A stretch of 64,000 bases of DNA, from the NCBI RefSeq assembly GCF_014204715.1, contig NZ_JACHLY010000002.1, positions 310,001 through 374,000 of the forward strand, written 5' to 3'. The notes beneath the pieces are model-generated. The model was not told the DNA's origin and did no database searches. It saw only the letters and a list, made by a program, of their open reading frames with translations. The position numbers were made by a program, and so were the translations under genes. Numbering within the stretch: position 1 is the stretch's first letter; every line of letters starts with the position of its first letter. The stretch is from Streptomonospora salina. Its GTDB lineage: Bacteria > Actinomycetota > Actinomycetes > Streptosporangiales > Streptosporangiaceae. This document shows positions 1 to 45,112 of the stretch, one piece after another.

Positions 1-1
1 C

Positions 2-1273
2 CCGCGGCGGCGCGTGTGCGCCGCCGACCCCCGCAGGCCCGGCACCGCCCATTGGCGCGAGGCGGTCGGCGAGGACCCCGGGGCGGTCCTGGACGGTTTC
101 GCCGCGACGGGCAGCGCCGAGTTCCCCGAGCTGCTCGTGGCCCGCACCCGGCTGGGCATCAGCGAGCTCACCGCCCACGGCGCCGACGGCCGCCTCCTGC
201 GCCGGATCGACCTGCCGGGCGAGGGCATGGCCACCCGCCTGGAGTCGGACGGCCGGGGCGGCGCCCACCTGTGCTACGCCGACGTCGCCACCCAGCAGTG
301 CGTCCTGGCGCTGGACGCCGGCGGCACCCGGCCGCGCCCGTGGCCGCCGGGGTCGCAGCCGCACCCGCCCGTAACGGTCCGGCGCCGCACCCTGCACTGC
401 CGCTCGGCCGACGGCACGCGCGTGCCCGTCACCCTGTTCCGGGCCGGCGGCGGCCCGGTCGGGGACGCCTCCTCCGCCGCCGTCCCCGACGACCCCGCGG
501 AGCCGGGCCCGACCGTCCTGCACGCCTACGGCGGGTTCGGCCGGCCACGGCAGTTCGGGTTCAGCGCGACGGTACTGGCCTGGCTGCTGGCCGGCGGCCG
601 CTACGCGGTGGCCCACGTCCGCGGCGGCGGCGACTTCGGGCAGGGATGGCACCTGCGCGGCGCCCGCCGCGACAAGCCCCGCTCGGTCGAGGACCTCACC
701 GCCGCGGGCGATGCGCTCGTCGAGGCGGGCGTGTGCCGGCGCGAACAGCTGTGCCTGTCAGGCGGGTCCGCCGGCGGTCTGCTGGTCCTGGCCGCCGCGG
801 CGCAGCGCCCGGACCTGTGCTCGGCCGTCATCGCCTCGGCTCCGCTGGCCGATATGGCGCGGTTCGAACGGCTGGGGCTGGGCCCCATGTGGATCCGCGA
901 GTTCGGCACCGCCGCCGACCCCGAGGACTTCGCCGCGCTGATGTCCTACTCGCCCTACCACCGCGTCCTGGACGACGGCGCCCGCGCACGGCCCGCGGTG
1001 CTGCTGACCGGTTTCCACGGCGACACCCGCACCGACGCCGCGCACCCGCGCAAGATGTGCGCGGCGCTGCTGCACCACGGCGGCGGGACGCGCCCGGCGC
1101 TGCTTCGCTACGAGCACGACGTCGGCCACGGCCCCCGCGCGGTGACCAAAGCGATCGAGCTCGCGGCCGACGCCCACGCCTTCGCCGCCGCCGAGACCGG
1201 TCTCGCCTTCCCGCGGGAGCCGGCGGCCGCGCCGGAGGGCGCCCGGCTGCTGCGGCGGTGGGAGCAGGCGTGA
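2..1273 (+). CDS. Prolyl oligopeptidase family (S9) peptidase, 5' end outside window
   Basis: The reading frame is open from the first bases of the window, so the start and much of the N-terminal beta-propeller are missing. The visible part is the end of the propeller plus a full C-terminal alpha/beta-hydrolase domain. It has the S9 hallmarks: HAYGGFG oxyanion region, VRGGGDFGQGWH, nucleophile elbow GGSAGG (Ser codon 767-769), an Asp in the TGFHGDTRTD stretch, and the catalytic His in HDVGHG. The family cleaves peptides after Pro or basic residues. It lies 169 bp upstream of a small acidic peptide gene. S9 peptidases are known to act on some RiPP precursors (FlaP in class III lanthipeptides), so a maturation role is possible; an ordinary oligopeptidase role is equally allowed. 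The family call is firm, the role is inference. Confidence 0.85.
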   Translation, partial: PRRRVCAADPRRPGTAHWREAVGEDPGAVLDGFAATGSAEFPELLVARTRLGISELTAHGADGRLLRRIDLPGEGMATRLESDGRGGAHLCYADVATQQCVLALDAGGTRPRPWPPGSQPHPPVTVRRRTLHCRSADGTRVPVTLFRAGGGPVGDASSAAVPDDPAEPGPTVLHAYGGFGRPRQFGFSATVLAWLLAGGRYAVAHVRGGGDFGQGWHLRGARRDKPRSVEDLTAAGDALVEAGVCRREQLCLSGGSAGGLLVLAAAAQRPDLCSAVIASAPLADMARFERLGLGPMWIREFGTAADPEDFAALMSYSPYHRVLDDGARARPAVLLTGFHGDTRTDAAHPRKMCAALLHHGGGTRPALLRYEHDVGHGPRAVTKAIELAADAHAFAAAETGLAFPREPAAAPEGARLLRRWEQA

Positions 1274-1432
1274 CCGCCGCAGAACCCCAGGCATGCGGCC
1301 GCCGCACCCGCGGCCGCACCCGCGCGCACCGCGCGGGTCCGGCGCCTCCCCCTCCCGGGGGTGGCGGTGCCCCGCCCCGCGCCCGCGTGCGCGGCCGGTA
1401 GGCACCGAACGGCACATCCGCGAACACGAGTC

Positions 1433-1437
1433 AGGAG
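1433..1437 (+). promoter_or_regulatory. Ribosome binding site of the small peptide gene
   Basis: AGGAG sits five bases before the ATG at 1443. This is a strong signal and supports the small open reading frame being translated. Confidence 0.6.
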
Positions 1438-1442
1438 ACGCC

Positions 1443-1556
1443 ATGGACCACGACGAGTTCGACATCGAGGTCGAGGAGCTGGGCGAGGTCACCTCGCGCG
1501 ACACCACCGCCGGCGGCGACAACGACGGCACCGACTCCAGCTCCGACTTCATCTGA
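1443..1556 (+). CDS. Putative RiPP precursor-like acidic peptide, 37 aa
   Basis: Encodes a 37-residue peptide with a strong ribosome binding site. The N-terminal part contains DEFDIEVEELGEV, similar in style to FNLD/FxLD-type recognition boxes in leaders of class I lanthipeptides, FxLD peptides and thiopeptides. The C-terminal part is Ser/Thr/Asp/Gly-rich (TSRDTTAGGDNDGT then DSSSDFI) and ends in Phe-Ile. It contains no Cys and no Pro, so it is not a lanthionine or thiazole precursor. It sits between a prolyl-oligopeptidase-family protease and a JmjC/cupin oxygenase, and a perfect hairpin follows its stop, as often seen where a precursor must be made in excess over its enzymes. The gene call is reasonable. 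The RiPP interpretation is inference: possible modifications are Asp/Ser/Thr hydroxylation or side-chain crosslinks. It could instead be a short acidic protein of unknown role. Confidence 0.6.
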   Translation: MDHDEFDIEVEELGEVTSRDTTAGGDNDGTDSSSDFI

Positions 1557-1595
1557 CCGACGCCGCCGGAATGATCCACCCGTCACCGACCGGTC

Positions 1596-1622
1596 GCCGG
1601 AGGCGCGCCGCGCGCCTCCGGC
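1596..1622 (+). terminator. Perfect 12-bp hairpin between peptide gene and JmjC gene (partial terminator/attenuator)
   Basis: GCCGGAGGCGCG pairs exactly with CGCGCCTCCGGC across a 3-base loop. There is no T tract. It begins 39 bases after the peptide stop and ends before the preferred GTG start of the next gene. Such hairpins can protect an upstream precursor mRNA or reduce read-through into downstream enzyme genes. Confidence 0.55.
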
Positions 1623-1660
1623 GGCCCGCCGCCGCAACCGCCGCCGTGGAGGCCCCCGTC

Positions 1661-2839
1661 GTGACCGAACGCCTGTTCACCGAGACGCTGCCGGCCGCCG
1701 TGGGCGAGGACCTCCTCTCCACGCGGCTGTCCACCGACGTCGTCTTCGCCGATCTCGGCGCCGAGACGGTCCGCCCGCTGCTGACCTTCGACGCGCTCAA
1801 CGACATCCTGTCCCGCTGCGCGCTGGAGCCCCCGCGCCTGCGGCTGCACCGCGAAGGCGCACCGGTGCCGCCTGCGCGCTACACCGACGCGGGCACCGGT
1901 TCGGGGGCCGACCGTTCGGTGATCCGGCCCGACGGCCTCTACCGCGAGCTGCGCGGGGGCGCGAGCCTGGTGCTGGACGCCGTCGACCGGCTGCACGCCC
2001 CCGTACAGGAGGCCACCGACGACCTGATGCGGCTCGTACGCGAACGGGCGCAGGTGAACCTGTACCTGATCTGGGGCGACTCGCACGGCTTCGACACCCA
2101 TTGGGACGACCACGACACCTTCGTCGTCCAGGTCGAGGGGACCAAGTCCTGGAAGGTCCACGGCCCCGGGAGCCGCCCGCACCCGATGAAGGTCGACTCC
2201 GACCACGGCCACACGCCGCCCGAGGGCACCGTGTGGGAGGGCGTCCTCTCGCCGGGCCACGTCCTGCACGTGCCGCGCGGGTGGTGGCACACGGTCGCGG
2301 GCACCGGCGACGTCAGCATGCACCTGACGTTCGGTTTCACCCGCGCTACGGGCATCGATTGGGCGCGTTCGCTCCTGGAGCGCCTTTACGACGTAGATTT
2401 CTTTCGGACCGATCTGCCGCGGTTCGGTTCAGCCGAGGAGCGGCGCAAGCACCGGCACGAACTGGTCCGCCGGCTCGCCGACGCGGCCGAGCAGCACGAC
2501 CTCGACGGCTTCCTGGACGAGCACGACTCCCGCTTCCCCCGGCGGCAGTCCTTCGCCCTGCCCTGGGCGGTCGACGGCACCGCACCGCAGGCCGGCACGC
2601 AGGTGGAGTTCGTGCCGATCCTGCCTCCACCCCTGCAGCGCGAGGACGGCCGGGTCGCGGTCACGGTCTCGGGCAAGCGCTACCGGCTGCCCGCGGCCGC
2701 CGAGCCGGTCCTGGCCGAGCTCGCCCGCAAACCGCACACGACGGCCGGCGAACTGGCCGACGACTCCGGCACCCCGCTGGAGACCACGGCGGCGGTCCTG
2801 CAGGCGCTGGTGCGCCACCAGCTGGTCCTGCTGCGGTGA
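1661..2839 (+). CDS. JmjC/cupin-4 family Fe(II)/2-oxoglutarate oxygenase with C-terminal winged-helix or PqqD-like domain
   Basis: A 392-aa protein from the GTG at 1661, chosen because GGAGG (1648-1652) lies eight bases upstream; an in-frame ATG at 1571 would read through the hairpin and lacks a good site. The fold carries the iron facial triad: His147 and Asp149 in THWDDHD and His210 in VPRGWWHTV. The LYLIWGDSHGFDTHWDDHD and VVQVEGTKSWKVHGP segments are typical of cupin-4/JmjC ribosomal-oxygenase relatives such as YcfD/ROX. Residues about 325-392 (GKRYRLPAAAEPVLAELARK onward) look like a winged helix of the ROX type or a PqqD-like peptide-binding domain. The family hydroxylates Arg, His, Asp or Asn side chains of peptides and proteins. 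Its place next to the acidic peptide suggests that peptide as substrate, but a ribosomal-protein substrate cannot be excluded. Confidence 0.85.
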   Translation: MTERLFTETLPAAVGEDLLSTRLSTDVVFADLGAETVRPLLTFDALNDILSRCALEPPRLRLHREGAPVPPARYTDAGTGSGADRSVIRPDGLYRELRGGASLVLDAVDRLHAPVQEATDDLMRLVRERAQVNLYLIWGDSHGFDTHWDDHDTFVVQVEGTKSWKVHGPGSRPHPMKVDSDHGHTPPEGTVWEGVLSPGHVLHVPRGWWHTVAGTGDVSMHLTFGFTRATGIDWARSLLERLYDVDFFRTDLPRFGSAEERRKHRHELVRRLADAAEQHDLDGFLDEHDSRFPRRQSFALPWAVDGTAPQAGTQVEFVPILPPPLQREDGRVAVTVSGKRYRLPAAAEPVLAELARKPHTTAGELADDSGTPLETTAAVLQALVRHQLVLLR

Positions 2840-2843
2840 TGCC

Positions 2844-2885
2844 GGGTGGGGCCGCGGTCGCGGCGCCGCGGTCGCGGCCCCACCC
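2844..2885 (+). terminator. Long GC-rich hairpin just after the JmjC gene
   Basis: GGGTGGGGCCGCG (2844-2856) pairs perfectly with CGCGGCCCCACCC (2873-2885), a 13-bp stem that starts four bases after the stop codon. There is no T run. It is the likely 3' end of the transcript. Confidence 0.6.
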
Positions 2886-2986
2886 GCCGGACGCCCCCGC
2901 CCGCGGCGCCGCCCGTCTCCGGCGCCGAACCGTCGCCCGGCCGGCACCCCCGCCGTGGCGAAGCCCCGCGATAGGCGATGCCGCGG

Positions 2987-3000
2987 GGTAAGCGCTTTCC
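2987..3000 (+). promoter_or_regulatory. Candidate LacI-family operator, site 1
   Basis: GGTAAGCGCTTTCC contains the central palindrome AAGCGCTT with GG...CC flanks, the form typical of LacI/GalR-family operators with a central CG. The second site about 308 bp downstream has almost the same sequence on the opposite strand, a spacing compatible with looping. No LacI gene is visible in this window. Confidence 0.45.
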
Positions 3001-3294
3001 GCACGTTCGCACGCGCCCTGCCCCCGATCCGAGCAGGACGGGCGCGCCGACCGGACCGCGGGGCGGCGGAGCACCGGTCAGGCACACGGCTGGAATACGG
3101 GTTTCCCGGATACCGTCGGCGCCGCGGGACGGTGCCGCGGGCCGCAGGGCCTTGGCCCGTCGGCGGGCCCGACTGCCGGTCGCTCGCAGGGTGGCCGGCA
3201 GCACCGGGGATCGGCGCCGCTCGGGGGCGGCACCGGAAAGGGAAAACCTGTCACCCCGAATCCGCAGAGATCGCCCGACCACCCCTCTTTACCT

Positions 3295-3308
3295 GGAAAG
3301 CGCTTGCC
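3295..3308 (-). promoter_or_regulatory. Candidate LacI-family operator, site 2
   Basis: GGAAAGCGCTTGCC is the reverse complement of GGCAAGCGCTTTCC, matching site 1 at 13 of 14 positions. It lies 122 bp before the hydrolase start, where an operator would be expected. Confidence 0.45.
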
Positions 3309-3430
3309 GGAACAATTCGAGAGGCCCGCCACGCACGGACAACGGGCCTGCACCAAGAGTTCTCCCGGCACCGCACCGGTGCTGCGGCCGGCCCGGGACG
3401 GGCCCCTGCGAACGATAGGACGGACCGCCG

Positions 3431-4558
3431 ATGCCGGAAAACCCTTCCCACCTGGGGAGCTTCCACGACTGGGTGGAGCTGGCCCGCAGCAGCCACGGGC
3501 TGTTCGGCTCCGGCGGCAGCGGACCCGACCCCGCGCGGCTGCGTGCGGTGCTGGGGCTGCTCGCCCCGCCCGAGGACGTGTACCTGCGCGAGGGCCGCAC
3601 ATGGCGCCGCGACGGCGTCGACGGCCGGGAGGTGTCGTGGTGGCCCGGCTTCGGCCCGCGCACGCGCGCCTGGGTCCTGAGGCCGGCCGGCGCGACGGAA
3701 CCGCTGCCGGGCCTCCTCACGCTGCACTGCGACGCCGGTGTCAAGCACCTCGGACGCGAGCGGCTCGCCGACGGCCCCGACGGCCCGGCACCCGCCTCGG
3801 CCCGGCTGCGTACCGACCTCTACGCCGGCCGGGCCGTCGCCGACGATCTGGCGCGGCAGGGCTTCACCGTGCTGTGCCACGACGCCTTCTCCTGGGGCAG
3901 CCGGGGCTTCGAGGCCGCGGCCATGCCCGAGCGGGTACTGCGCGACGCCGAAGCCGAACTCGCCGCCCGCCCCGGCCCTCCCCCCGGCGCGGCGGAGCGC
4001 TACGACGCCGCCGCCCGCCACCACGAGCACACCCTCGCCAAGTACTGCACGCTGCTGGGCACCTCGTTTGCGGGAATGGTGGTGCGCGAGGACATCCTGG
4101 CGCTGGACCACCTGGCCGCCCGGCCCGACGTGCGCACCGACGCGATCGGCTGTGTGGGCCTGTCGGGCGGCGGGTGGCGGGCGACGCTGCTGCACGCGCT
4201 CGACGCCCGGATCCGCGCCGGGGCGGTGGCCGCCATGATGTCGACCTTCGCCCAGTTGCCGGCGCGGCACGTCGACCCGCACACGTGGATGCTGCTGCCG
4301 CCGGGACTGAGCCGCGAATGCGACTGGCCCGAGCTGGCTGCCGCCCGCGCCCCCGCGCCGCTGCTGGTGCAGTACGCCGAGCAGGACCACCTGTTCACCC
4401 CCGAAGGGATGCGCGGCGCCGACGCCGTGCTGCGGGCCCGCTACACCGCGGCCCGCCACCCGTCCGGCTACCGGGGGAGCTTCCACCCCGGCGGGCACGC
4501 CTTCTCGGAGCCGATGCAGCGAGAGGCGGCGGAGTGGCTGCGCGAGCATCTCGGTTGA
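3431..4558 (+). CDS. Alpha/beta hydrolase, acetyl-xylan-esterase / dienelactone-hydrolase-like
   Basis: A 375-aa protein without a signal peptide. The nucleophile elbow is GLSGGGW (CVGLSGGGWRATLLHAL), the acid is likely the Asp in YAEQDHLFTP, and the base is the His in HPGGHAFSEP close to the C-terminus. The N-terminal part (LPGLLTLHCDAGVKHLG, then AVADDLARQGFTVLCHDAF) fits large bacterial hydrolases annotated as acetyl xylan esterase or alpha/beta hydrolase. The substrate is unknown. Two LacI-like sites upstream suggest sugar-responsive control. The neighbouring peptide/oxygenase genes make a role in peptide maturation a less likely alternative. The ATG at 3431 is preceded by AGGA at ten bases spacing. 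Confidence 0.75.
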   Translation: MPENPSHLGSFHDWVELARSSHGLFGSGGSGPDPARLRAVLGLLAPPEDVYLREGRTWRRDGVDGREVSWWPGFGPRTRAWVLRPAGATEPLPGLLTLHCDAGVKHLGRERLADGPDGPAPASARLRTDLYAGRAVADDLARQGFTVLCHDAFSWGSRGFEAAAMPERVLRDAEAELAARPGPPPGAAERYDAAARHHEHTLAKYCTLLGTSFAGMVVREDILALDHLAARPDVRTDAIGCVGLSGGGWRATLLHALDARIRAGAVAAMMSTFAQLPARHVDPHTWMLLPPGLSRECDWPELAAARAPAPLLVQYAEQDHLFTPEGMRGADAVLRARYTAARHPSGYRGSFHPGGHAFSEPMQREAAEWLREHLG

Positions 4559-4670
4559 CTTCCGCTCCCCGGCATGGAGACCGGGGATTCCTACGGCGGT
4601 CGGCCGACCGTCGCGGCGGGTTCCCGCTTCGTCGCGCTGCGCCGGACCGGAGCCCGGTCGTACCTGCGCT

Positions 4671-4790
4671 CCCCCTACTGTGCGAGCTCCGCAAGCTCCG
4701 CATATTCGCCTCCCCTACTGTGCGAGCTCCGCAAGCTCCGCATATTCGCCTCCCCTACTGTGCGAGCTCCGCAAGCTCCGCATATTCGCA
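4671..4790. repeat. Three tandem 40-bp direct repeats
   Basis: Units start at 4671, 4711 and 4751 and differ only in the first or last base. The core reads CTACTGTGCGAGCTCCGCAA followed by GCTCCGCATATTCGC. Inside each unit TGCGAGCT can pair with AGCTCCGCA (one bulge) to form a small hairpin. There are no spacers, so this is not a CRISPR array. The function is unknown. Confidence 0.9.
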
Positions 4791-4872
4791 CAGCGGGGGC
4801 CCAGCGGGGGCCCACAGGCCGGCACCGCCGGTCCGGCGGCCGTCGGGGCACTCGTTGCCCTGTGATCACCTA

Positions 4873-4891
4873 TTAGGGTAGCCTCATCTAA
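4873..4891 (+). promoter_or_regulatory. Iron box (DmdR/IdeR-type operator) upstream of the fhuF-like gene
   Basis: TTAGGGTAGCCTCATCTAA matches 15 of 19 positions of the actinobacterial iron box TTAGGTTAGGCTAACCTAA. It predicts Fe(II)-dependent repression of the downstream reductase. Confidence 0.8.
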
Positions 4892-4997
4892 AGAGCGGGG
4901 CGATGCCCCGTCGCGCATCCCGGTCGGCATCCGGTCCGCGTAGCACGCACCGAAGCCGCACTCTCCGACGCGGTGCAGAAAGGTTGACTGAGGCAGA

Positions 4998-5864
4998 ATG
5001 GCCCCTGCGCAGACCCCGCTACAGGCGGTGATCGACGCCTGCGGGCCGCTGAAGTTCGCGCCGCTGCCCGACGTGCGCACCGCCTCGGTGCGATCCTTCC
5101 GCGAGCACCCGGCCGCCGAGCACTGGTACCGCACCGACCTCATGGTCGCCGAGGGGGCGGTGGGTCCGCTGTTCGACCGGCTCACCACCCGGCACGGACC
5201 CGCCCACAAGCTGCCGGGCGCCACCAGCTTCATGCGCTCGCTCCTGCGCGAGCCCGTCTTCCTGGTCTCGGCGGGCATCTACCTGACCGGGCGCGCGGCA
5301 TTGCTGGACGAGCGCCGCCTGTGGTTCCCGTGGCTGTCCACCGCGGAGTTCGGCGCACCCACCGTCACCAGCGCCCGCATGGCGGTACTGCCCGACGACC
5401 CGGCGGCCGGCCACCCCGACGCGGTCGTGGTGGCCGACGAGGACGCCCTCAACGCCGTCGCCGCCCGCCACCTGGTGGGTGCGTTCTCCCCGATCATCGA
5501 CGCCCTGCACCAGCACACGCGCATCGGCCTGCGCACACTGTGGGGCTGGGTGCTCGACACCCAGCACTTCTACATGCTGAACCCGGCGCGCTTCCTCGGC
5601 TGCGACGCCGAGGCCGCATGGCACCGCGCCGGCGCCCTGGGCGAAGCGCTGATCGAGGCGGGCGCGGTCACCCGGGCGCGTCCGCGGCTGTTCCCCTTCT
5701 ACGAGGACCACCCGCGCGGCACCTGGGCCGTGCGGGGCACGTGCTGCTTCGACTACAAGGGCGACCCCGAGCACGGCTTCTGCACCACCTGCCCCCTCAA
5801 ATGCGACGGCGACCGCCGCGCCGAGCTGCAGGAGTGGATCCGCAACCCGGCTCTGGCGCCGTAG
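4998..5864 (+). CDS. fhuF: FhuF-like siderophore-iron reductase ([2Fe-2S] protein)
   Basis: A 288-aa protein ending with the FhuF-type cysteine signature: Cys249-Cys250 in RGTCCFDYKG and Cys262/Cys265 in FCTTCPL, which bind an unusual [2Fe-2S] cluster. The N-terminal helical domain is typical for (2Fe-2S)-binding ferric iron reductases. The family reduces ferric hydroxamate-type siderophores in the cytoplasm to release Fe(II). GAGG at 4990-4993 precedes the ATG closely. An iron box upstream and the siderophore cluster downstream suggest that it releases iron from the siderophore made here. It is the only siderophore-related gene on the + strand, so it is a separate transcription unit. Confidence 0.88.
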   Translation: MAPAQTPLQAVIDACGPLKFAPLPDVRTASVRSFREHPAAEHWYRTDLMVAEGAVGPLFDRLTTRHGPAHKLPGATSFMRSLLREPVFLVSAGIYLTGRAALLDERRLWFPWLSTAEFGAPTVTSARMAVLPDDPAAGHPDAVVVADEDALNAVAARHLVGAFSPIIDALHQHTRIGLRTLWGWVLDTQHFYMLNPARFLGCDAEAAWHRAGALGEALIEAGAVTRARPRLFPFYEDHPRGTWAVRGTCCFDYKGDPEHGFCTTCPLKCDGDRRAELQEWIRNPALAP

Positions 5865-6026
5865 GGGCAGCAGGCGGGCGACCGGGCGGACCCACACGCC
5901 GCGCGCATCGGCCCCGTGTCCGCGTCCTCGCGGGGCCTGGCCGCGTAGTGCCCGGACGGTTCCTCCACCCCCGCCGGGGCGACCGCCGCGCCGATCCCGG
6001 ATCCGCCCGCCGTGCGCACCGGAAAC

Positions 6027-8996: not shown

Positions 8997-9416
8997 TCAG
9001 GCGCCCGCCAGAGCCGTGCCCGGAACCAGATCCGAGCCCGGGACCGGCTCGGCGGGGTCGCTGCCCAGGGACACGATGCGGTTGGCGGAGTCGACGTGGA
9101 CCACGCGCGGCTCGTGGCGGGAGCGCTCGGACTCCTCCAGTTCCACGTACGACATGATGATGGCCAGGTCGCCCGGGTCGACCAGGTGGGCGGCGGCGCC
9201 GTTGATGCCGATCACGCCGCTGCCGCGCTCCCCGGCGATGGTGTAGGTGACCAGGCGGTTTCCGTTGTCGATGTCGACGACGTGGACCTGCTCGCCCTCG
9301 ACGATGTCGGCCGCCTCCAGCAGGTCGGCGTCGATGGTGATCGATCCCACGTAGTGCAGATCGGCCTGAGTGACCGTCGCGCGGTGGATCTTGCCGTGGA
9401 ACAGGGTGCGGCGCAC
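8997..9416 (-). CDS. panD: Aspartate 1-decarboxylase
   Basis: A 139-aa protein with the full PanD pattern: [20 protein letters not shown], the self-cleavage site Gly24-Ser25 in HYVGSITID (Ser25 becomes the pyruvoyl group), Lys9, [20 protein letters not shown] and the [12 protein letters not shown] segment. It makes beta-alanine for pantothenate and CoA from aspartate. The length matches the family. It stands alone here, without other pan genes and with no link to the siderophore genes. Confidence 0.97.
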
Positions 9417-10660: not shown

Positions 10661-10679
10661 TTAGCTTAGGCTTGGCTAA
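10661..10679 (-). promoter_or_regulatory. Iron box upstream of the siderophore-interacting protein
   Basis: TTAGCTTAGGCTTGGCTAA matches 15 of 19 consensus positions and is itself nearly palindromic. It overlaps the last codons of the upstream MFS gene. Confidence 0.8.
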
Positions 10680-12037
10680 CTCGATAGTCCGGGTTCGTGC
10701 GGATCGCCGCCGCCGTCGCCGCCGGGGCGGGCCGCCGGGGCGGCCGCGCGCGGCGGCGCGGGCGGCGCCGCGCCCGAGCCCGCGCCGTCTGCGCGCCCGG
10801 CCCGGCGCAGGCCGGGAGCGGCAGCGGCCAGAACGGCCACCAGGACCACGGTCGCCGCGCCGCCGGCCGCCACGGCCGCACCGGCACCGATCAGCGGCGC
10901 CAGCGATCCCAGAACGAGCGCTCCCAGCGCCCCGCCCGCGGTGTTCTGCGCGCTCCAGACGCTGTTGACCCGGCCGCGCAGCGCATCGGGGGTGTGCGAC
11001 TGCAGCAGCGCGAAGCGCAGGATCTCCTCGACGATCTCGGCGAAGCCGAGCACCACCAGCGCCGCGGCGGCCAGGGCCACGGCGCCCGAAGCCCCGAAGG
11101 CGGCCGAAGCGGCGCCGCAGCCGGCCACCGCGACCAGCAGCACCGCGCCGCTGCGGCGCACGGTACGGGTCCACCCGCTGGTCACCGAGGCCAGGACCGC
11201 GCCGAGCGCGGATGCGGAGTAGAGGAGTCCGGCGACGGTCTCGCCGGCGTGCAGCACGGTGTCGGTGAACTCGGGCACGAGTACGTAGGGCGTGGCCAGC
11301 AGCAGCTGGACGAATCCGAGCAGCAGCAGCGGCCCGACGGTGCGGTGCCGGGCGGCGAAGCGGAGGCCGTCGGCCGCCGCAGCTGCGATCCTCCGCCGGC
11401 CGCCGCCGTGCGCCGCCTCGGGGACCAGCGGCGGCAGCCGCAGGACGAGAACGGTGGTGAGCGCGCTGACAGCGGCGGTGATGCCGAAGACCGCGGGATA
11501 GCCCCACGCCGCGATGACGGCGCCGCCCAGCGCGGGTGCTGCGACCGAGCCGAGCTGGCCGGTCAGCGCCAGCAGCGCCCCGGCTGCGGGCAGCCGCTCG
11601 CGCGGAAGCAGCCCGGGCACGGCCGCCTGCAGGGCCACGGTGCTGAACGTGCCGACGAAACCGTTCAGCGCCGCGCAGGCGCAGATCACCGCGAAGCCCG
11701 CGGCGGCGCCGCCGCTGTGGGCCCACACCGCGTTGAGGGCGAGTCCGGTGAAGGCGGCCGTGGCGGCGGCGCGCCCCGCCGCGATCAGCCGGCGGCGGGG
11801 GAACCGGTCGGCCAGCACTCCCCCGACCAGCGTGCCGGAGAACACGGCGGCCCCGGTGACCGCGCTGACGACGGCGACCAGGGTCGAGGACCCGGTCGCC
11901 GAGTAGACCTGCATCGGCAGCGCCACCAGGGCGAACCCGAGTCCGAAGACCGAGATCAGCCGCGCGGTGAACACCACCCGGAACGCGGGGCTGACCCGCA
12001 GCGGGGTGAGGTCGATCAGCGCCGTGCGCAGTTTCAC
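10676..12037 (-). CDS. MFS transporter, EntS-like siderophore exporter (1)
   Basis: A 453-aa MFS_3 family protein with about 12 hydrophobic segments. The opening DLTPLRVSPAFRVVFTARLI and the segment LVGGVLADRFPRRRLI match the enterobactin-exporter type, and RFALLQSHTPDALRGRVNSV is a conserved loop also present in the second exporter. The GTG start has GGAGG eight bases upstream and lies 43 bp after mbtH, so the two are co-transcribed. The predicted role is export of the finished apo-siderophore. The C-terminal tail is very rich in Ala, Pro, Gly and Arg. Confidence 0.85.
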   Translation of the reverse strand: MKLRTALIDLTPLRVSPAFRVVFTARLISVFGLGFALVALPMQVYSATGSSTLVAVVSAVTGAAVFSGTLVGGVLADRFPRRRLIAAGRAAATAAFTGLALNAVWAHSGGAAAGFAVICACAALNGFVGTFSTVALQAAVPGLLPRERLPAAGALLALTGQLGSVAAPALGGAVIAAWGYPAVFGITAAVSALTTVLVLRLPPLVPEAAHGGGRRRIAAAAADGLRFAARHRTVGPLLLLGFVQLLLATPYVLVPEFTDTVLHAGETVAGLLYSASALGAVLASVTSGWTRTVRRSGAVLLVAVAGCGAASAAFGASGAVALAAAALVVLGFAEIVEEILRFALLQSHTPDALRGRVNSVWSAQNTAGGALGALVLGSLAPLIGAGAAVAAGGAATVVLVAVLAAAAPGLRRAGRADGAGSGAAPPAPPRAAAPAARPGGDGGGDPHEPGLSS

Positions 12038-12080
12038 CGGCCCGCCTCCCGGCGGTCGCCGGAGCGGGGGCCGCCGGGCC

Positions 12081-12293
12081 TCACACCTCTCCCATCGCGG
12101 CCCGCAGGCTGCGCGGCCGAAGGTCGGTCCAGTTCTCCTCGACGTAGGCCAGTGCGGCCTCGCGGTCCACCGGGCCGTGCACCTGCCGCCAGCCGTCGGG
12201 CACCGCTGCGAACTCCGGCCACAGGGAGTGCTGGTCTTCGTCGTTGACCAGGACCAGGAAGCGGCCCTCGGGGTCGTCGAAGGGGTTGCTCAT
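12081..12293 (-). CDS. mbtH: MbtH-like protein, NRPS adenylation-domain partner
   Basis: A 70-aa protein with the MbtH signature: [20 protein letters not shown], then [14 protein letters not shown] and a C-terminal TDLRPRSL with the conserved WTDLRP. MbtH proteins bind adenylation domains and increase their activity or solubility. AAGGA eight bases before the ATG and an iron box just upstream support this start. It is the first gene of a short mbtH-exporter operon and the only MbtH in the window, so it should serve both NRPSs. Confidence 0.95.
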
Positions 12294-12311
12294 ACCGAGA
12301 TTCCTTTCTCA

Positions 12312-12330
12312 TTAGGGTAGGCTAAACTTA
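12312..12330 (-). promoter_or_regulatory. Iron box upstream of mbtH
   Basis: TTAGGGTAGGCTAAACTTA matches 16 of 19 consensus positions, the best match in the window. It lies 19 bp before the mbtH start and abuts the stop of the upstream exporter gene. Confidence 0.85.
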
Positions 12331-13605
12331 TCAAGTTGTCCGGTCGCCGCGAAGGGGCGGCGCGACGCCGCGGGTGGCCAGCAGCCCCGGCGCCGTCACA
12401 GCGATCGCGCCGACCAGGGCCGCCCCCGCCGCTCCGGCCGCCACCAGCGCGGCCGCCGTGCCCAGGACGGCGGCGAGCCCGCCCATGAGCGACGCGCCCA
12501 GCGACCCGCCGACCGTGGCCTGGGCCAGCCACGCGCTGTTGACCCGCCCCCGCAGCGCATCGGGGGTGTGCGCCTGGATCAGGGAGTAGCGCAGGATCTC
12601 CTCGACCGCCTGGAAGCAGCCCAGCAGCACCAGCGCGGCCAGCGCGAGCGCCGCACTGCGGGCGGCGCCCAGCAGCGCCACCGAAACCCCGCACATCGCC
12701 ACCGCCGCGGGCACGACCGCCCCGGTGCGGGCGATGCGGCCGGTCCACCCGCTGGTCAGCGACGCCGCCAGGGCACCGGCCGCCGGGGCGGTATAGAGCA
12801 GCCCCGCCAGGGCGGCGTCGCCGCCCAGCACGCGGTCGGTGAACTCGGGGACCAGCACGGTGGGCATCGTGAACAGCACCTGGGTGAAGCCGAGCAGCAG
12901 CAGCGGGCGCACCACCGGGTTGCGCGCCACGAACGCCAGACCGTCGGCGACGGCGCGCAGCGCGGTGGCGCCCGCTGCGGGCGATTCCGCGGGTGCGGCC
13001 GGCACGAACCACACCGCCGCTGTGGCGACGGCGGCGATCGCGCAGGTGGCGAGGTATCCGGCGGCCACACCGCCCAGCGAGATCAGCGCACCGCCCAGGG
13101 CCGGCGCGGCCACCGCGCCCAGCTGGGCGGTCACCGCGAACAGCGCACCGGCGGCGGGCAGCCGGCCGGGGCCCACCAGCGCGGGGACCATGGACTGCTG
13201 GGCGATCAGCCCCATGGTGCCGATGACGCCGTTGACGGTGGCGCACACGTAGATCACGGCCAGCAGCGGACCGCCCGGAAGGACGGTGTTGGCCGCGAAC
13301 ATACCCACGACCAGCGTCTCCACCCCGAGGCTGACCAGCATGAGCCGCCGCCGGTCCAGTTTGTCGGCCAGCAGCCCGCCCAGCACGGTGCCGGCGAAGC
13401 TCGCCAGCCCGTTGACGACGCTGACGCTGGCCACCAGCGCCGACGATCCGGTCATGGCATAGACCTGCATCGGCAGGGCGACGAGGCGGAACCCGCCGCC
13501 GAACAGCGAGATCAGCCGGACCGCGAAGACGATCCGGAACCCCCTGCCGCTGCGCAGCGGACTCAGATCGATGACCAGGCCCTGCAGGGCCGGCCTCGCG
13601 GTCAC
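12331..13605 (-). CDS. MFS transporter, EntS-like siderophore exporter (2)
   Basis: A 424-aa MFS_3 protein, similar to the exporter at 10676-12037 over its length (shared DLSPLRSGRGFRIVF, VLGGLLADKLDRRRLM and QAHTPDALRGRVNSAW motifs) with about 12 membrane segments. The GTG start is preceded by AAGGGGGAG. It follows the GNAT gene by 49 bp in the same direction, so it likely belongs to the binding protein-GNAT-exporter unit. Two related exporters side by side suggest tandem duplication followed by divergence. Confidence 0.85.
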   Translation of the reverse strand: MTARPALQGLVIDLSPLRSGRGFRIVFAVRLISLFGGGFRLVALPMQVYAMTGSSALVASVSVVNGLASFAGTVLGGLLADKLDRRRLMLVSLGVETLVVGMFAANTVLPGGPLLAVIYVCATVNGVIGTMGLIAQQSMVPALVGPGRLPAAGALFAVTAQLGAVAAPALGGALISLGGVAAGYLATCAIAAVATAAVWFVPAAPAESPAAGATALRAVADGLAFVARNPVVRPLLLLGFTQVLFTMPTVLVPEFTDRVLGGDAALAGLLYTAPAAGALAASLTSGWTGRIARTGAVVPAAVAMCGVSVALLGAARSAALALAALVLLGCFQAVEEILRYSLIQAHTPDALRGRVNSAWLAQATVGGSLGASLMGGLAAVLGTAAALVAAGAAGAALVGAIAVTAPGLLATRGVAPPLRGDRTT

Positions 13606-13654
13606 CCCCTCCCCCTTCCGCCGCCGTGCTCGGGGGCCGGGCGGCCGGCCGCCG

Positions 13655-14365
13655 TCACTCCCGCGCCCGGGCGAACAGCGCCGCCCGCTTGTGCGGCAGT
13701 TCGGCCTCGGCGAGGAATTCGAGTCCGGCCTTGCGGGCCGCGCGGCAGGCCGCGGCGTTGCCGGAGTCGGGATCCATGAGGATGCGCCGGCAGTGCGGGT
13801 CGGCGGCGAAGACGGCGGGGGCGACCGCGGCGAGGATCTCCGCGGCCAGGCCGCGCCCCGTCCGGCCCGGATCGCCGATGGCGATGTGGAATCCGACGTC
13901 GTGGGGGCGGGCGTCGCAGTGCGGCGCGATGACGTCGCGCGCGGCGCGGTACAGCTCTACGTAGGCGGTGTCGGTGCCGTCGCGGCTGACGATCAGCGGC
14001 CGCGAGAAGGTGCCGCCCAGTTGGGCGGAGAGCTCCTCGGCCCAGCGCTCGCGGCTCCAGGCCTGGTCGTAGAAGGGGGCCACGTGCGGCAGGTGCATCC
14101 ACGTGTGCACGGTCGCCAGATCGGCGCCGTGCGGCTGGGCCGGGCGCGCGGCGAAGGGCGCAGCGAGGTCGGGGGTCGGCGGCGGACCGGCGGCCAGCAC
14201 GTCGGCGCCGGCGGGGATCTCGCGGGGAGAAGGGCGGTGCGCCGCCGGGGACGCGTCGGTGTCGGTCGGTTCGGGCACGGGCACGTGCGTCACCTCCGGG
14301 TCGCGCCCCGCTGGCGGGGCGGTGTGCGGGCGGAATGGGGCGGTGTGCGGGTCGCGGGCGGTCAC
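13655..14365 (-). CDS. GNAT N-acyltransferase, siderophore hydroxamate type (IucB/MbtK-like)
   Basis: A 236-aa protein of the Acetyltransf_8 type. Conserved stretches are VHTWMHLPHVAPFYDQAW, SRPLIVSRDGTDTAYVELY, HDVGFHIAIGDPGRTGRGLA (acyl-CoA binding) and RILMDPDSGNAAACRAARKA. Relatives acylate N-hydroxy-lysine or N-hydroxy-ornithine to make a hydroxamate. The first 40 or so residues are low-complexity, so a shorter start (GTG at 14293) is possible; the GTG at 14365 is chosen because it overlaps the stop of the binding protein gene (GTGA), which suggests translational coupling. With the N-hydroxylase at 39119-40468 it would supply N-acyl-N-hydroxyornithine to the NRPS. Confidence 0.8.
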   Translation of the reverse strand: MTARDPHTAPFRPHTAPPAGRDPEVTHVPVPEPTDTDASPAAHRPSPREIPAGADVLAAGPPPTPDLAAPFAARPAQPHGADLATVHTWMHLPHVAPFYDQAWSRERWAEELSAQLGGTFSRPLIVSRDGTDTAYVELYRAARDVIAPHCDARPHDVGFHIAIGDPGRTGRGLAAEILAAVAPAVFAADPHCRRILMDPDSGNAAACRAARKAGLEFLAEAELPHKRAALFARARE

Positions 14366-15333
14366 AGGTCCTGCAGGACCCGCTCCTCCAGCTGGTCGAA
14401 GAGGTCCAGGCCGGTGGTATAGCTCATCGCCCCCAACTGCGGGACGGGGTAGACGCGGTCGCCGCCGACCGGTTCCAGGTCCTGCCACGGCCCCTGGTCC
14501 ATGACCTCCTGGATGGCTTCGGTGGGCTCGCCCTGGGCGTCGGCGCGGGTGAGGACGGCGTCGTACTCGTTCAGCCGGTCCAGGTTCTCCAGCGGCAGGG
14601 ACTCGCTGAAGCCGCCGTCGTCGGATTCGGGGGTGAAGCGCAGGCCGGCGTCGGCGGGCACGGTGGTGCCGTGCGAGCCCTGGTGCTCCAGGGTCCACTT
14701 GCCGTCGCCGTAGGCGTCGACGGAGACGAACACGGTGTCGGCGAGGACCTCGGAGTACTCCTCGCCGAGTTCGGCCGCCCGCGTGTCGTAGGAGTCGATC
14801 AGCGCGGAGTGGGCGTCGGAGACACCGGCGGCGTCGGCGATGCGCCGGTTCATGTCCTTCCACTCCGAGGGGATGTTCATCGCGGCGACCGCGACGGGGG
14901 CGATCCGCTCCAGCTCGGAGTAGTCGAACTCCATGGCGGCGGGCAGGCCGGAGACGACCAGGTCGGGCTCCAGCTCGGCGACCTTCTCGACGTCGATCTC
15001 CAGGTCGCGGCCCACCTGCGGGAGGCCCTGGGCCTTCTCCAGCTCCTCAGGGGTCATGCCGCTGTCGTGGGTGCCGCTGGACACCCCGACGAGACCGGCC
15101 TCCTCCACCGAGATCAGCGGGGTCACGGCCCAGCCGATGGCGACGATGCGCTGGGGATCTCGGGGGATCTCCACCGGCTGATCGGCGTGGTCGCTGGTGA
15201 ACTCGCGCGTGGGAGCGGACTCGGACCCGCTCTCGTCGCCCTCGGCGCCGCCGGTGCAGCCGGTGAGTGTGAGGGCCGCCGCGGCGATCAGGCCGATGCC
15301 CCATCGGGGGATCGGGGCGCGGTATCGGTTCAT
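14362..15333 (-). CDS. Siderophore-binding lipoprotein of an ABC importer (FecB/FhuD-like)
   Basis: A 323-aa protein with a lipoprotein signal: LIAAAALTLTGC, lipobox Cys around residue 26. The mature part has the periplasmic-binding pattern PVEIPRDPQRIVAIGWAVTP, VGRDLEIDVEKVAELEPDLV, and a C-terminal GDRVYPVPQLGAMSYTTGLD. It should capture the ferric-siderophore at the cell surface. GGAG five bases before the ATG supports the start, and an iron box lies upstream. No permease or ATPase gene lies beside it, which is unusual; these must be elsewhere. Confidence 0.9.
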   Translation of the reverse strand: MNRYRAPIPRWGIGLIAAAALTLTGCTGGAEGDESGSESAPTREFTSDHADQPVEIPRDPQRIVAIGWAVTPLISVEEAGLVGVSSGTHDSGMTPEELEKAQGLPQVGRDLEIDVEKVAELEPDLVVSGLPAAMEFDYSELERIAPVAVAAMNIPSEWKDMNRRIADAAGVSDAHSALIDSYDTRAAELGEEYSEVLADTVFVSVDAYGDGKWTLEHQGSHGTTVPADAGLRFTPESDDGGFSESLPLENLDRLNEYDAVLTRADAQGEPTEAIQEVMDQGPWQDLEPVGGDRVYPVPQLGAMSYTTGLDLFDQLEERVLQDL

Positions 15334-15353
15334 GGGGACTCCAGACGTTCATG

Positions 15354-15372
15354 AAAGGTGAGGCTTACCTTA
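15354..15372 (-). promoter_or_regulatory. Iron box upstream of the siderophore-binding protein gene
   Basis: AAAGGTGAGGCTTACCTTA matches 14 of 19 consensus positions and keeps the AGGT...ACCT symmetry. It lies 21 bp before the start codon, between NRPS2 and the binding protein. Confidence 0.75.
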
Positions 15373-15424
15373 TTGGATCGGTGCGAGGGTGCGGCAAGCG
15401 GGTCGCGGCCGCCGGGTGCGCGCG

Positions 15425-18400
15425 TCACCCGGAGCGGTCCGCGGGCGCGGCGAGGCGGGCGGCGAGTGCGGGGCCGATGACCGCCAAGCCCGCCGAGGTG
15501 AGCAGATCGTCGTGGGCGGCGGGGACCTCGTGGTGCTCGATTCCGCCGTCGATGCCGTGCTCCCAGGCGCGGGCGGCGCCGGCGGGGGCGTCCTCGGCCG
15601 TGAAGCAGAGCGCATCGCCCTTGTAGCGCGGCTGCTCCTGCCCGGCGGAGGCGGCCAGGACCTCGGCGGCCCAGCGGCGGTTGGCCTCGGCCATGCCCGC
15701 ATCGCCGCGTTCGGCGCCGATCCGGGCGGCCAGGGCGCCGCCGGCATCGGCCGGCCGCTCCGCTTCCTCCTCCGCTCCGGTGGCGCAGGCGCCGCGCCGG
15801 GCGTGCCACGGCGCCGGGTAGGCGTCCAGCAGCGCGAGCAGCTCGACGTCCGCGCCGTCCTGCGCCAGCTCGGCCGCCACGGCCTGGGCCAGGGTTCCGC
15901 CGAAGGACCACCCGGCGATCCGGTAGGGACCGTGCGGGTGAGCGCGGCGGATGCGCCGGGCGTAGACACCGGCGAGGGCGGCGACGGTGCCGGCGGCGGT
16001 GGCCGCCGCCGGCGCCTCCACGCCCAGGATCGGCACGTCGGAACCGAGGTGGCGGCGCAGTCCGACGAAGGACCAGCTGAACCCGCTCGCGGGGTGCAGG
16101 CAGAACAGCGGTGCCTGCTCGCCGCCCGAGCGCAGCACGACGACGCCGGGTTCGCCGGGGGCGTCCTGCGGCGCCGCGGCCCCGACCCGGCCGGCGCGGC
16201 CCTCCGGCCGCGCGCCGAGTGCGGCCAGGTGCGCGGCCAGCGCGGCCGGCGACGGGTTGGCGAACAGGTCGGCGATCGCCGCACGTGCGCCGGTCTCGGC
16301 TTCGACCCGGGAGCGCAGCCGCACCAGCAGCATCGAGTGGCCGCCCAGGTCGAAGAAGTCGTCGTCGGCGCCGACCCGGGCGGCGCCCAGCACCTCGGCG
16401 AAGACCTCGCACAGCACCGCCTCGGCGGCGCCGCGCGGCTCGCGCCCGGGAGCCGGGGCGAACTCGGCCGGGTCGGGCACCGGAAGCGCGCTCCGGTCCA
16501 GCTTGCCGTGGGCGGTCAGCGGGAGCGCGTGCAGCGGCAGGAACGCCGCCGGCACCATGTAGTCGGGCAGCCGGGCGGCCAGGTGGGCGCGCAGCTCGGC
16601 GGTGCCGGGACCGCCGCCGCCCCGGGGCGCGTCGGCGTCGCCGCCGGGTCCCGGTCCTCGATCCGGCGGAACCGCCCCGGCGGCGCCGTGGCGCTGCGCC
16701 GTGGCGACGATGTAGGCCGCCAGTCGCCGGTCCCCCGGCGCGGCCTCCCACGTGTCGACGACCGCCTGGTCGACGGCGGGGTGCTCGCTCAGCGCCGCGG
16801 CGATCTCGCCGGGCTCGATGCGGAAGCCGCGCACCTTCACCTGGTCGTCGGCGCGGCCGACGTAGTCCACCGACCCGTCGGGCATGCGCCGCACCAGGTC
16901 GCCGGTGCGGTACATGCGGGCGCCGGGCGCGCCGGACGGGTCGGCGACGAACCGGTCGGCGGTGAGCCCGTAGCGTCCGAGGTAGCCGCGGGCGAGACCG
17001 GCCCCGCCGAGGTACAGCTCGCCGACCACGCCCGGCGGGACCGGATTCAGCCGCGCGTCGAGCACGTAGGCGGCCGTGTTGGCCGTGGGGTGCCCGATGA
17101 CCGGGCGGACGTGGGCGCCGGCGCGCGCCGCCAGAGCGTCGACCGTGGTCTCGGTGGGGCCGTAGAGGTTGACGGCGACGGTGCCGCGCTCCTCCCACTC
17201 GCCCAGCCGCCTCCACAGCGACGCCGGCACCGCCTCGCCGCCCACGCCCAGCGTCAGCGGGATGTGGGTGCCCGGTTCGCCCAACCCGGCGCGCATCAGC
17301 TGCTGCAGGTGCGAGGGGGCCACTTCGATGAAGTCGAGGCGGTCGGCGCGGATCCGCTCGACCAGCAGCGCCGGGTCGTGCATGGCCTCTTCGGTGACGA
17401 TGTGCACGGCGTGGCCGTCCAGCAGCCACAGCTGCGGCTGCCAGGCGGCGTCGAAGGAGAACGACCAGGCGTGGCCCGCGCGCAGCCGGTCGCGGCCGGC
17501 GCGGTGCCGGGCGGGCCGGTGCAGCGTCTCGCGGTGACTGTGGAACAGGTTGGCGAGGCTGCGGTGGGTGACCGCCACGCCCTTGGGACGGCCGGTGGAA
17601 CCGGAGGTGTAGATGACGTAGGCGGGGTGGTCGGGGTGCAGCGGGGCGGTGCGGTCGGCGTCGGCCGGGTCGGTCGCGGGCCGCTCGTCCGGGCCCGCGG
17701 GGTCCGGAGGGAGGGTCGCGCGGGCGCCGAGCGCGGCGGCGCGCTCCCGCAGCCCGGGGGTGGCGACGGTGAGCAGCGGTGCGGCGTCGGTCAGCATGTG
17801 GGCGACGCGGTCGTCGGGGTAGGCCGGGTCGACGGGCAGGTAGGCGGCGCCGGCCTTGAGCACCGCCAGCATCGCCACCAGGGTGTCGGCCGAGCGCGGA
17901 AGCAGCAGCGCGACGACGGTTTCGGGACCGGCTCCGTGCGCGATGAGTTCGTGGGCCAGTCGGTTGGCGCGCCGGTTCAGCTCGGCGAACGTGTGGCTTC
18001 GGCCCTCGCAGACCAGCGCCGGGTGGTCGGGGCCGCCGGCGGCCGCTGCCTCGAACAGGGCGGGCACGGTCGCCGGGTCGGGCACCGCCACGCTCGGCCC
18101 CCGGGCGTCGCGGGTGATCCGGTCGGACTCCTCGGCGGTGAGCAGGTCCAGCCGGCCGATGGCGGCGGAGGGGTCGTCGGCGGCGGCCGCCAGCAGCCGC
18201 TCCATCCGCAGGGCGACGTTGCGCACCGTCGCGTCGTCGAACAGGTCGCGGCTGTAGTCGACGACGCACCGCACGGCTCCGGCCGCGGGGTCGGCGGCGT
18301 TCTCGCCGGGGTCGCGGAACTCGAAGGCCAGGTCGAACTTGCCGCCGGGAGCGGCCACCGGCTCGCGTTCGGCCTGCAGGCCCTCCATCTCCAGGCGCGG

Positions 18401-45071: not shown

Positions 45072-45112
45072 GTCTCTCCTTCCGCAGATGAACAAGGATA
45101 AGCAAACCTCAC

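Follow-up and report, generated by a model that had tools for sequence, protein, structure and literature searches.

A candidate RiPP cassette of Streptomonospora and related bacteria, pairing a short Asp-rich peptide with a JmjC oxygenase that carries an RRE-like domain

The window analyzed in this study is a stretch of 64,000 nucleotides from Streptomonospora salina (contig NZ_JACHLY010000002.1, positions 310,001 to 374,000), and its first 2.8 kb contain the genes for an S9 peptidase, a 37-aa peptide and a JmjC oxygenase. We consider it fairly probable that this locus is a cassette for a ribosomally synthesized and post-translationally modified peptide (RiPP), in which the oxygenase, equipped with a C-terminal domain resembling a RiPP recognition element (RRE), would hydroxylate core Asp residues of the 37-aa precursor. 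The N-terminal strand of the precursor (FDIEVEEL) would be bound by the RRE-like domain, and the Fe(II)/2-oxoglutarate center would hydroxylate, most likely at the beta-carbon, at least one invariant Asp of the core D-x-D-G-x-D-x-x-S-D-F. Leader removal in Nocardiopsidaceae would fall to the S9 peptidase encoded upstream, perhaps by cleavage after the invariant Arg19. The conservation of the precursor and its pairing with the oxygenase, the ligands of the oxygenase, its RRE-like fold and a wider family with Asp-repeat precursors were computed; from these we infer leader binding, hydroxylation, the choice of Asp, the cleavage site and the product. The cassette apparently represents an undescribed RiPP class, a probable new class within a known kind. 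Its features in the window are as follows.

2-1273, + strand: 3' part of the gene for an S9 (prolyl oligopeptidase/oligopeptidase-B-like) peptidase (PF00326, E 4e-35 for the part in the window)
1433-1437, + strand: Shine-Dalgarno-like AGGAG of the peptide gene, read directly, with five bases between its end and the ATG
1443-1556, + strand: putative precursor peptide P0001, 37 aa
1443-1499, + strand: predicted leader M1-R19 with the strand-like box FDIEVEEL (putative leader/core boundary)
1500-1553, + strand: predicted core D20-I37 with D26-x-D28-G29-x-D31-x-x-S34-D35-F36
1595-1623, + strand: hairpin (stem of 13 bp) in the gap that separates peptide and oxygenase genes (z -2.04 for the folded stretch 1557-1660)
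1661-2839, + strand: 392-aa JmjC oxygenase with an RRE-like domain at its C-terminus; GGAGG lies ahead of the GTG start
2099-2107, + strand: H147-x-D149 of the presumed Fe(II) triad
2144-2146, + strand: K162, probable 2-oxoglutarate contact
2288-2290, + strand: H210, presumed third ligand
2594-2836, + strand: RRE-like C-terminal domain of the oxygenase (structure models and Foldseek matches)

Conservation of the peptide and its pairing with the oxygenase

The three co-directional genes described in an earlier note on this DNA are present, with two corrections. The S9 gene is truncated by the window edge; the complete gene (contig positions 308964-311273) starts 1037 bp upstream of the first base of the window and encodes a 769-aa protein that has a beta-propeller and a catalytic domain, as prolyl oligopeptidases do (Peptidase_S9_N, PF02897, E 3e-42; Peptidase_S9, PF00326, E 1.3e-34). 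The oxygenase gene probably starts at the GTG at 1661, since most orthologues begin at a matching V/M/L-T-D/E-R. The peptide (MDHDEFDIEVEELGEVTSRDTTAGGDNDGTDSSSDFI) has the ribosome-binding site, the FDIEVEEL box and the Ser/Thr/Asp-rich tail that the note described, but the conserved residue of its core is chiefly Asp rather than Ser or Thr. A similar purine-rich site precedes the peptide gene in most of 36 orthologues.

The window oxygenase was searched against 297 genomes of the order, 138 of which encode some homologue and 68 a close orthologue (E at most 2.1e-80; cassette genomes). An independent search of the same genomes with a peptide profile found the peptide in 67. By comparison of both sets, the peptide occurs in 67 of the 68 cassette genomes and was not found without the oxygenase, and the sole orthologue lacking it (G070) lies at a contig end, starting at base 30. 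All 36 loci that were read closely (the 30 best oxygenase hits and six 20 kb loci, the window's own included) have the upstream peptide. The first outcome that the earlier note named as refuting, a peptide not conserved beside homologous oxygenases, did not come about, either here or in the wider set of loci described below.

Pairwise codon comparisons of the 32 orthologues with a 22-aa core gave 2352 synonymous against 832 non-synonymous differences, and the peptide core is under purifying selection. In an alignment of 25 peptides (22 with a 22-residue core and three from Pseudonocardia), 11 columns are invariant: M1, E11, V16 and R19, and in the core D26, D28, G29, D31, S34, D35 and F36. The seven invariant core residues are thus kept as far as Pseudonocardia. 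The Arg of VTSRD, corresponding to R19 in the window, is the only basic residue in 32/36 orthologues. Against the oligopeptidase B family of NCBIfam, whose cut-off is 1313 bits, the part of the S9 protein in the window scores far lower (91.6 bits), and cleavage after R19 is accordingly a plausible guess, no more.

All 36 orthologous gaps between the peptide and oxygenase genes have negative z values, many of them weak or modest, with longest stem runs of 9-19. The hairpin may act as an attenuator or mRNA stabilizer; hairpins of this sort limit read-through into the enzyme genes of other RiPP operons.

Among the NCBIfam models, the window peptide matched only RiPP_CPAC, below threshold (E 0.0051, 17 bits; cut-off 60), eight precursors gave no match, and 41 oxygenases gave nothing relevant (one weak, irrelevant match in one member). 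No match was obtained in an Rfam scan of positions 1-6000 of the window or with PADLOC on five proteins.

The oxygenase and the wider family of loci

By its sequence and predicted structure, the enzyme is a JmjC oxygenase (PF08007) of the ribosomal oxygenase (ROX) fold. The window protein matches JmjC_2 (PF08007) with E 4.5e-23, and the HxD...H triad (H147, D149, H210) is invariant in 41/41 aligned oxygenases, as is K162. We take the metal-ligand and 2-oxoglutarate roles of these residues from what is known of the family. ROX-like and FIH-like JmjC hydroxylases act on side-chain beta-carbons. Asp at D-x-D spacing is common to the window-type, Pseudonocardia, Acidobacteria and Asp-repeat precursors. 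Because of this beta-carbon chemistry and because Asp is the residue that is kept, beta-hydroxylation of Asp would be the simplest reaction. The AlphaFold model of the whole oxygenase (pLDDT 91.6) has NO66 as best fold match (E 2.8e-22), followed by MINA53, YcfD and YxbC.

The 81 C-terminal residues were also modeled alone (pLDDT 93.2). In a Foldseek search with this domain, ranks 1-7 are McbB (three entries), TruD, MibB, ThcOx and TbiB1 with its leader, all of which we take to be RRE-bearing structures, while YcfD of R. marinus follows at rank 8, the RRE of PbtF at rank 9 and MarR-type regulators from rank 31; all E-values exceed 0.01, and the RRE likeness is therefore one of topology plus rank, not proof. 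The order of strands (14-17, 20-25, 28-33) and helices (34-45, 51-58, 62-74) corresponds to the beta3-alpha3 order that a passage of the structure-based RRE definition gives for RREs (PMC12710340). For the peptide-binding-like C-terminus suggested in the earlier note, the search ranks RRE-bearing structures first, but with weak E-values, similar winged helices in ROX enzymes and few PqqD matches. Most likely, a single fold occurs in two variants, the ROX winged helix and the RRE, and the oxygenase branch described here holds a leader with it.

A quick maximum-likelihood tree of 69 oxygenases contained E. coli RoxA as the only ROX enzyme. RoxA is a long outgroup (27.6% identity over 152 aa to the window oxygenase), so that the enzyme does not group with RoxA/YcfD by sequence, and the second refuting outcome named in the earlier note did not come about either. 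The oxygenases cluster by precursor type: the 10 groups need 11 label changes, and shuffling gives a mean of 47.4. The Streptomonospora alba oxygenase is 91% identical to that of the window, in keeping with a Streptomonospora-like host of the family Nocardiopsidaceae. We should note that records titled Glycomyces fuscus (L108) and Streptomonospora nanhaiensis (L110) contain Nocardiopsis-like cassettes and that the L110 oxygenase groups with that of N. alba, so these names may be wrong.

In a species-level scan (one genome for each of 84,980 species), the best 80 of 474 relatives represent 79 distinct loci, 77 of which have a candidate precursor directly upstream of the JmjC gene. Both loci without one (L123, L140) begin at contig ends. 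By group, precursors were found in 49/51 loci of the window type, 3/3 of Pseudonocardia, 4/4 of the Streptomyces/Kitasatospora type, 9/9 of a second Streptomyces-like type, 11/11 of Acidobacteriota (one cut by a contig end) and a single metagenome-assembled genome of Actinomycetota; in addition, all five loci on viral contigs have a candidate. Depending on the set, precursors were recognized by the leader or VTSRD pattern, by eye among small open reading frames with a Shine-Dalgarno-like site, or, in Acidobacteria, by at least two D.DG, three of the latter having been seen before that filter was applied. The cores differ between the types, and a hydrophobic strand-like leader box is common to them (FEVEVEDL, LLLGIEED, LLVAVEEI, LLLSVDPL).

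At a length of about 100-140 aa, Acidobacteria precursors hold up to seven D.DG[ST]D each. This motif occurs 45 times in 11 precursors from 10 loci, against a mean of 0.97 and a maximum of 5 in 1000 core shuffles; the set is biased because it was found by D.DG, though not enough to explain 45 occurrences. A wider search of 396 Actinomycetota genomes found an oxygenase homologue in 59, and a further Asp-repeat precursor type, with a leader mostly like L-[ST]-[ED]-[ED]-D-I, in 10 of 29 loci. Twenty Actinomycetota regions were opened, ten of them picked because an Asp-repeat precursor had already been flagged; such precursors are present in 13, namely these ten and three of the ten others. Two regions (L213, L214) look like an aldo/keto-reductase type and were left unscored.

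The S9 gene lies upstream in 49 of the 51 named window-type loci, L123 and L140 being the exceptions. It was found only in the Nocardiopsidaceae version of the cassette, so its place in the cassette, as the earlier note had it, applies to this version and not to the others.

Several further cassette types were observed. The second Streptomyces-like type consists of a 43-49-aa precursor ending like DGGGTGKSDGND, a JmjC protein, an aldo/keto reductase and an APH-like protein, the latter two in 10/10 loci, and must carry out something beyond hydroxylation. It was seen in L042, L043 and L045 (Streptomyces plasmids), L147, L155-L156, L158-L163 and L166 (a viral contig), and is possibly mobile because it also occurs on plasmids and on one contig of the viral collection. 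The Kitasatospora/Streptomyces type (L139, L141, L142, L148) combines a 53-aa precursor (EFPEVEVKVS...MFGDSVK) with a JmjC protein. L139 (5706-10622) additionally encodes a radical S-adenosylmethionine (SAM) protein and a second JmjC-domain protein and looks like a multi-enzyme RiPP cluster. Another precursor type, ending for example in DGENRDLNLPRE or PEGDALNHPA, is found in L071, L074, L079, L083, L167, L169 and L168; the oxygenases of the first six form their own clade (support 100), and that of L168 is outside the tree. L211 has a JmjC and Suc_Fer-like pair with no recognized precursor in 12 kb; the precursor may have been lost, lie farther away or be of a different kind.

Iron-linked neighbors and alternative explanations

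Two further features of the window lie downstream of the cassette.

4873-4891, + strand: iron-box-like site ahead of the FhuF-like gene, 16/19 to an IdeR/DmdR consensus
4998-5864, + strand: FhuF-like [2Fe-2S] protein (PF11575, E 3.2e-6), possible partner of the cassette

A number of observations weigh against reading these loci as RiPP cassettes with a leader-binding oxygenase. The precursor criteria vary by group and partly consist of the motif itself, and acidic cores are of low complexity. Within the order, no precursor was recognized at six of the 20 homologues that are more distant (L077, L078, L080, L081, L082, L085), nor in L210, L211, L212, L215 and L216 among the 20 opened Actinomycetota regions. 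The S9 gene is absent outside the window type in the loci compared, bar one 31% match about 2 kb off (L152). For the C-terminal domain, the Foldseek E-values are weak (best 0.017; none below 0.001), the winged helices of YcfD share its fold, and Pfam matches among 27 sequences are weak as well (HTH_IclR 15, ROXA-like_wH 7, PqqD 2). In L164, on the same contig as L070, the JmjC open reading frame is short (280 aa) and does not include the C-terminal domain, yet a precursor is present.

One alternative explanation is that the enzyme is an ordinary ribosomal oxygenase next to an unrelated small conserved protein. The whole-length fold matches to NO66, MINA53 and YcfD and the seven ROXA-like_wH matches fit such an enzyme, but the pairing is near-perfect, several distinct precursor types lie directly upstream of the gene and E. 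coli RoxA is far removed in the tree, which leaves this the least probable of the explanations considered. Alternatively, the peptide may not be a substrate: small and acidic, it could have a regulatory or chaperone-like role in controlling the oxygenase or the S9 peptidase. Its core is almost invariant, as the cores of many antimicrobial RiPPs are not, and no lineage-wide exporter or immunity gene was recognized, but core repeats of up to seven per precursor suit a substrate and the enzyme carries an RRE-like domain; we regard a regulatory peptide as very unlikely. The product could also be a calcium-binding peptide, i.e., a calcium-dependent ribosomal antibiotic or a matrix peptide. Calcium-dependent lipopeptide antibiotics have DxDG as their motif, which also resembles EF-hand-like loops, and both the invariant D-x-D-G-x-D core and the long D-x-D-G-[ST]-D repeats agree with this. 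On the other side, no lipid-attaching enzyme or immunity gene was recognized among the scanned neighbors, and the neighbors that recur across lineages are [2Fe-2S] proteins, so that we consider calcium binding unlikely.

Iron binding would extend the RiPP explanation rather than contradict it. The hydroxylated Asp-rich peptide would be a ribosomal Fe(III) ligand, either a siderophore or an intracellular buffer, and the neighboring FhuF-like or Suc_Fer-like [2Fe-2S] protein would reduce and release the iron. Known siderophores use beta-hydroxyaspartate as an Fe(III) ligand. In the Asp-rich lineages, a [2Fe-2S] protein of one of these two kinds is the usual neighbor, and an iron box (15/19 or better) was found in three lineages, while ten shuffles each of five loci gave none at this threshold. 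In 46 of the 51 named window-type loci, an FhuF-like gene lies downstream on the same strand, always with an iron-box-like site that starts 89-151 bp ahead of the FhuF match (46/46). Four of the five loci without it end within 4.3 kb of the oxygenase, and in the fifth (L087, same contig as G046:C20) FhuF is 11 kb away. A FhuF orthologue (E at most 1e-105) is encoded by 69/297 genomes, namely all 68 cassette genomes and G224, but this co-occurrence is confounded by common descent, and independent lineages help more. In the separate lineage L164, FhuF adjoins the JmjC gene with a 17/19 box. In Pseudonocardia, a Suc_Fer-like gene (PF06999) lies divergently upstream, and an iron box separates it from the precursor gene (3/3 loci); in Acidobacteria, such a gene directly follows the JmjC gene (11/11). 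The same order is found in 11/13 Asp-repeat loci of Actinomycetota (a BLAST cluster, four of the 11 confirmed with Pfam); of the remaining two, L208 ends at a contig end and L209 has none. The second Streptomyces-like type, serving as control, has FhuF or Suc_Fer in 0/10 loci.

Against iron binding, no box of at least 15/19 was found upstream of the oxygenase in the 50 window-type loci scanned or anywhere in L200-L219, and the 11 Acidobacteria loci yield one Fur-like site, far from the precursor. FhuF could belong to an inherited neighborhood, given that panD is near in 13/20 loci too, and the siderophore-like nonribosomal peptide synthetase cluster downstream in the window could account for it. 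Suc_Fer is common in the order (235/297 genomes, including 25 of the 68 cassette genomes), and no universal exporter was recognized. We therefore hold the iron-binding product as a tentative possibility. Since the Nocardiopsidaceae cassette has no iron box and the reductase has one, the peptide might serve as an iron store that is unloaded by an FhuF/Suc_Fer reductase induced upon iron starvation. The broader proposal remains speculative and in our view doubtful: a new RiPP class of Actinomycetota and Acidobacteriota in which the JmjC-RRE enzyme makes beta-hydroxyaspartate from D-x-D-G-[ST]-D and the products are iron(III)-binding peptides (ribosomal siderophores or intracellular stores).

Other genes near the cassette were considered as well. 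The aspartate decarboxylase gene panD (8997-9416, - strand) is likewise near the cassette in 13/20 loci, which is probably plain synteny. The siderophore-like cluster (10676-19966 and 44289-45095) encodes two major facilitator superfamily proteins, a PF01497 binding protein, a nonribosomal peptide synthetase with a thioesterase and a short-chain dehydrogenase. Sites resembling an iron box lie in it at 12312, 15354 and 45113. A 40-bp unit is present in three perfect tandem copies at 4672-4789, between the hydrolase and FhuF genes. The alpha/beta hydrolase (3431-4558) was rejected as a cassette member, as only L086 among L086-L169 has one, and so were a phosphopantetheinyl transferase (PPTase), a family 2 glycosyltransferase (GT2) and FtsX, which are absent from several of 20 loci. 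The idea that FhuF replaces a missing Suc_Fer in cassette genomes was discarded given the 25 that have Suc_Fer elsewhere, and the ABC operon downstream in L130 is of sugar type and was rejected as an iron transporter.

The RiPP explanation with a JmjC-RRE enzyme remains our preferred reading. The pairing of peptide and JmjC genes in actinobacteria and Acidobacteria suggests an uncharacterized family of modified bacterial peptides, perhaps metal-binding. If this is true, encoded peptides are the products of a JmjC oxygenase branch that has hardly been described, with a two-gene core of precursor and JmjC-RRE enzyme. This would also connect the ROX fold with RRE biology and might help to account for the RRE-like domain on eukaryotic PF08007 proteins. 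If the products bind iron, they would be ribosomal counterparts of beta-hydroxyaspartate siderophores, with a ligand spacing that can be read from the gene sequence.

Comparison with known systems

The enzyme shares the JmjC fold, the HxD...H triad and the C-terminal winged helix with RoxA/YcfD, NO66 and MINA53, but differs in being paired with a small upstream peptide gene. Class III lanthipeptides of the FlaP type are processed by an S9 peptidase of the prolyl oligopeptidase kind. Like these, the window has an S9 peptidase adjoining a putative RiPP precursor, whereas its peptide has no Cys and no lanthionine synthetase was found among the scanned neighbors. Bufferins and methanobactin are ribosomal metallophores made by multinuclear non-heme iron-dependent oxidative enzymes (MNIOs). 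They resemble the proposed system in combining a ribosomal peptide, possibly metal-binding, with an iron oxygenase, but the Cys-free peptide of the window is paired with a JmjC enzyme rather than an MNIO.

A RiPP class with a JmjC-RRE protein as the sole conserved enzyme, or with Asp-repeat precursors, was not among the matches listed in literature searches that reached few subscription papers. The earlier statement that no RiPP class is known from these parts agrees with this, but RRE-fused PF08007 proteins have been mentioned. In the passages concerned, the structure-based RRE definition (mSystems 2025, PMC12710340) describes PF08007 proteins of fish and algae with a fused RRE-like fold and places the closest bacterial homologues (about 30% identity) in RiPP-like contexts. 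The same domain pair is proposed for the window oxygenase; for these fusions, the section gives no precursor, core motif or chemistry and does not name a bacterial lineage.

JmjC tailoring of RiPPs is, like RRE-JmjC fusions, already in print. According to passages in PMC12707348 and PMC12257519, the JmjC hydroxylases BipG/BpmG of the biphenomycin type and the cupin-like PbsQ hydroxylate Orn of a RiPP precursor. The likeness lies in a JmjC/cupin-like enzyme acting on a residue of a RiPP precursor, which for the window is proposed only. Neither MNIOs nor B12-radical SAM enzymes were detected among the flanking genes scanned with Pfam, a scan that covered part of the flanking open reading frames, and the D-x-D-G-x-D-x-x-S-D-F core is not of the aromatic FRF type. 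In biphenomycin clusters, which those passages describe as also having an MNIO, a B12-radical SAM enzyme and aromatic precursors, the JmjC enzyme carries out one tailoring step; in the system described here, no other modifying enzyme was found to be conserved across lineages, and Asp abounds in the core.

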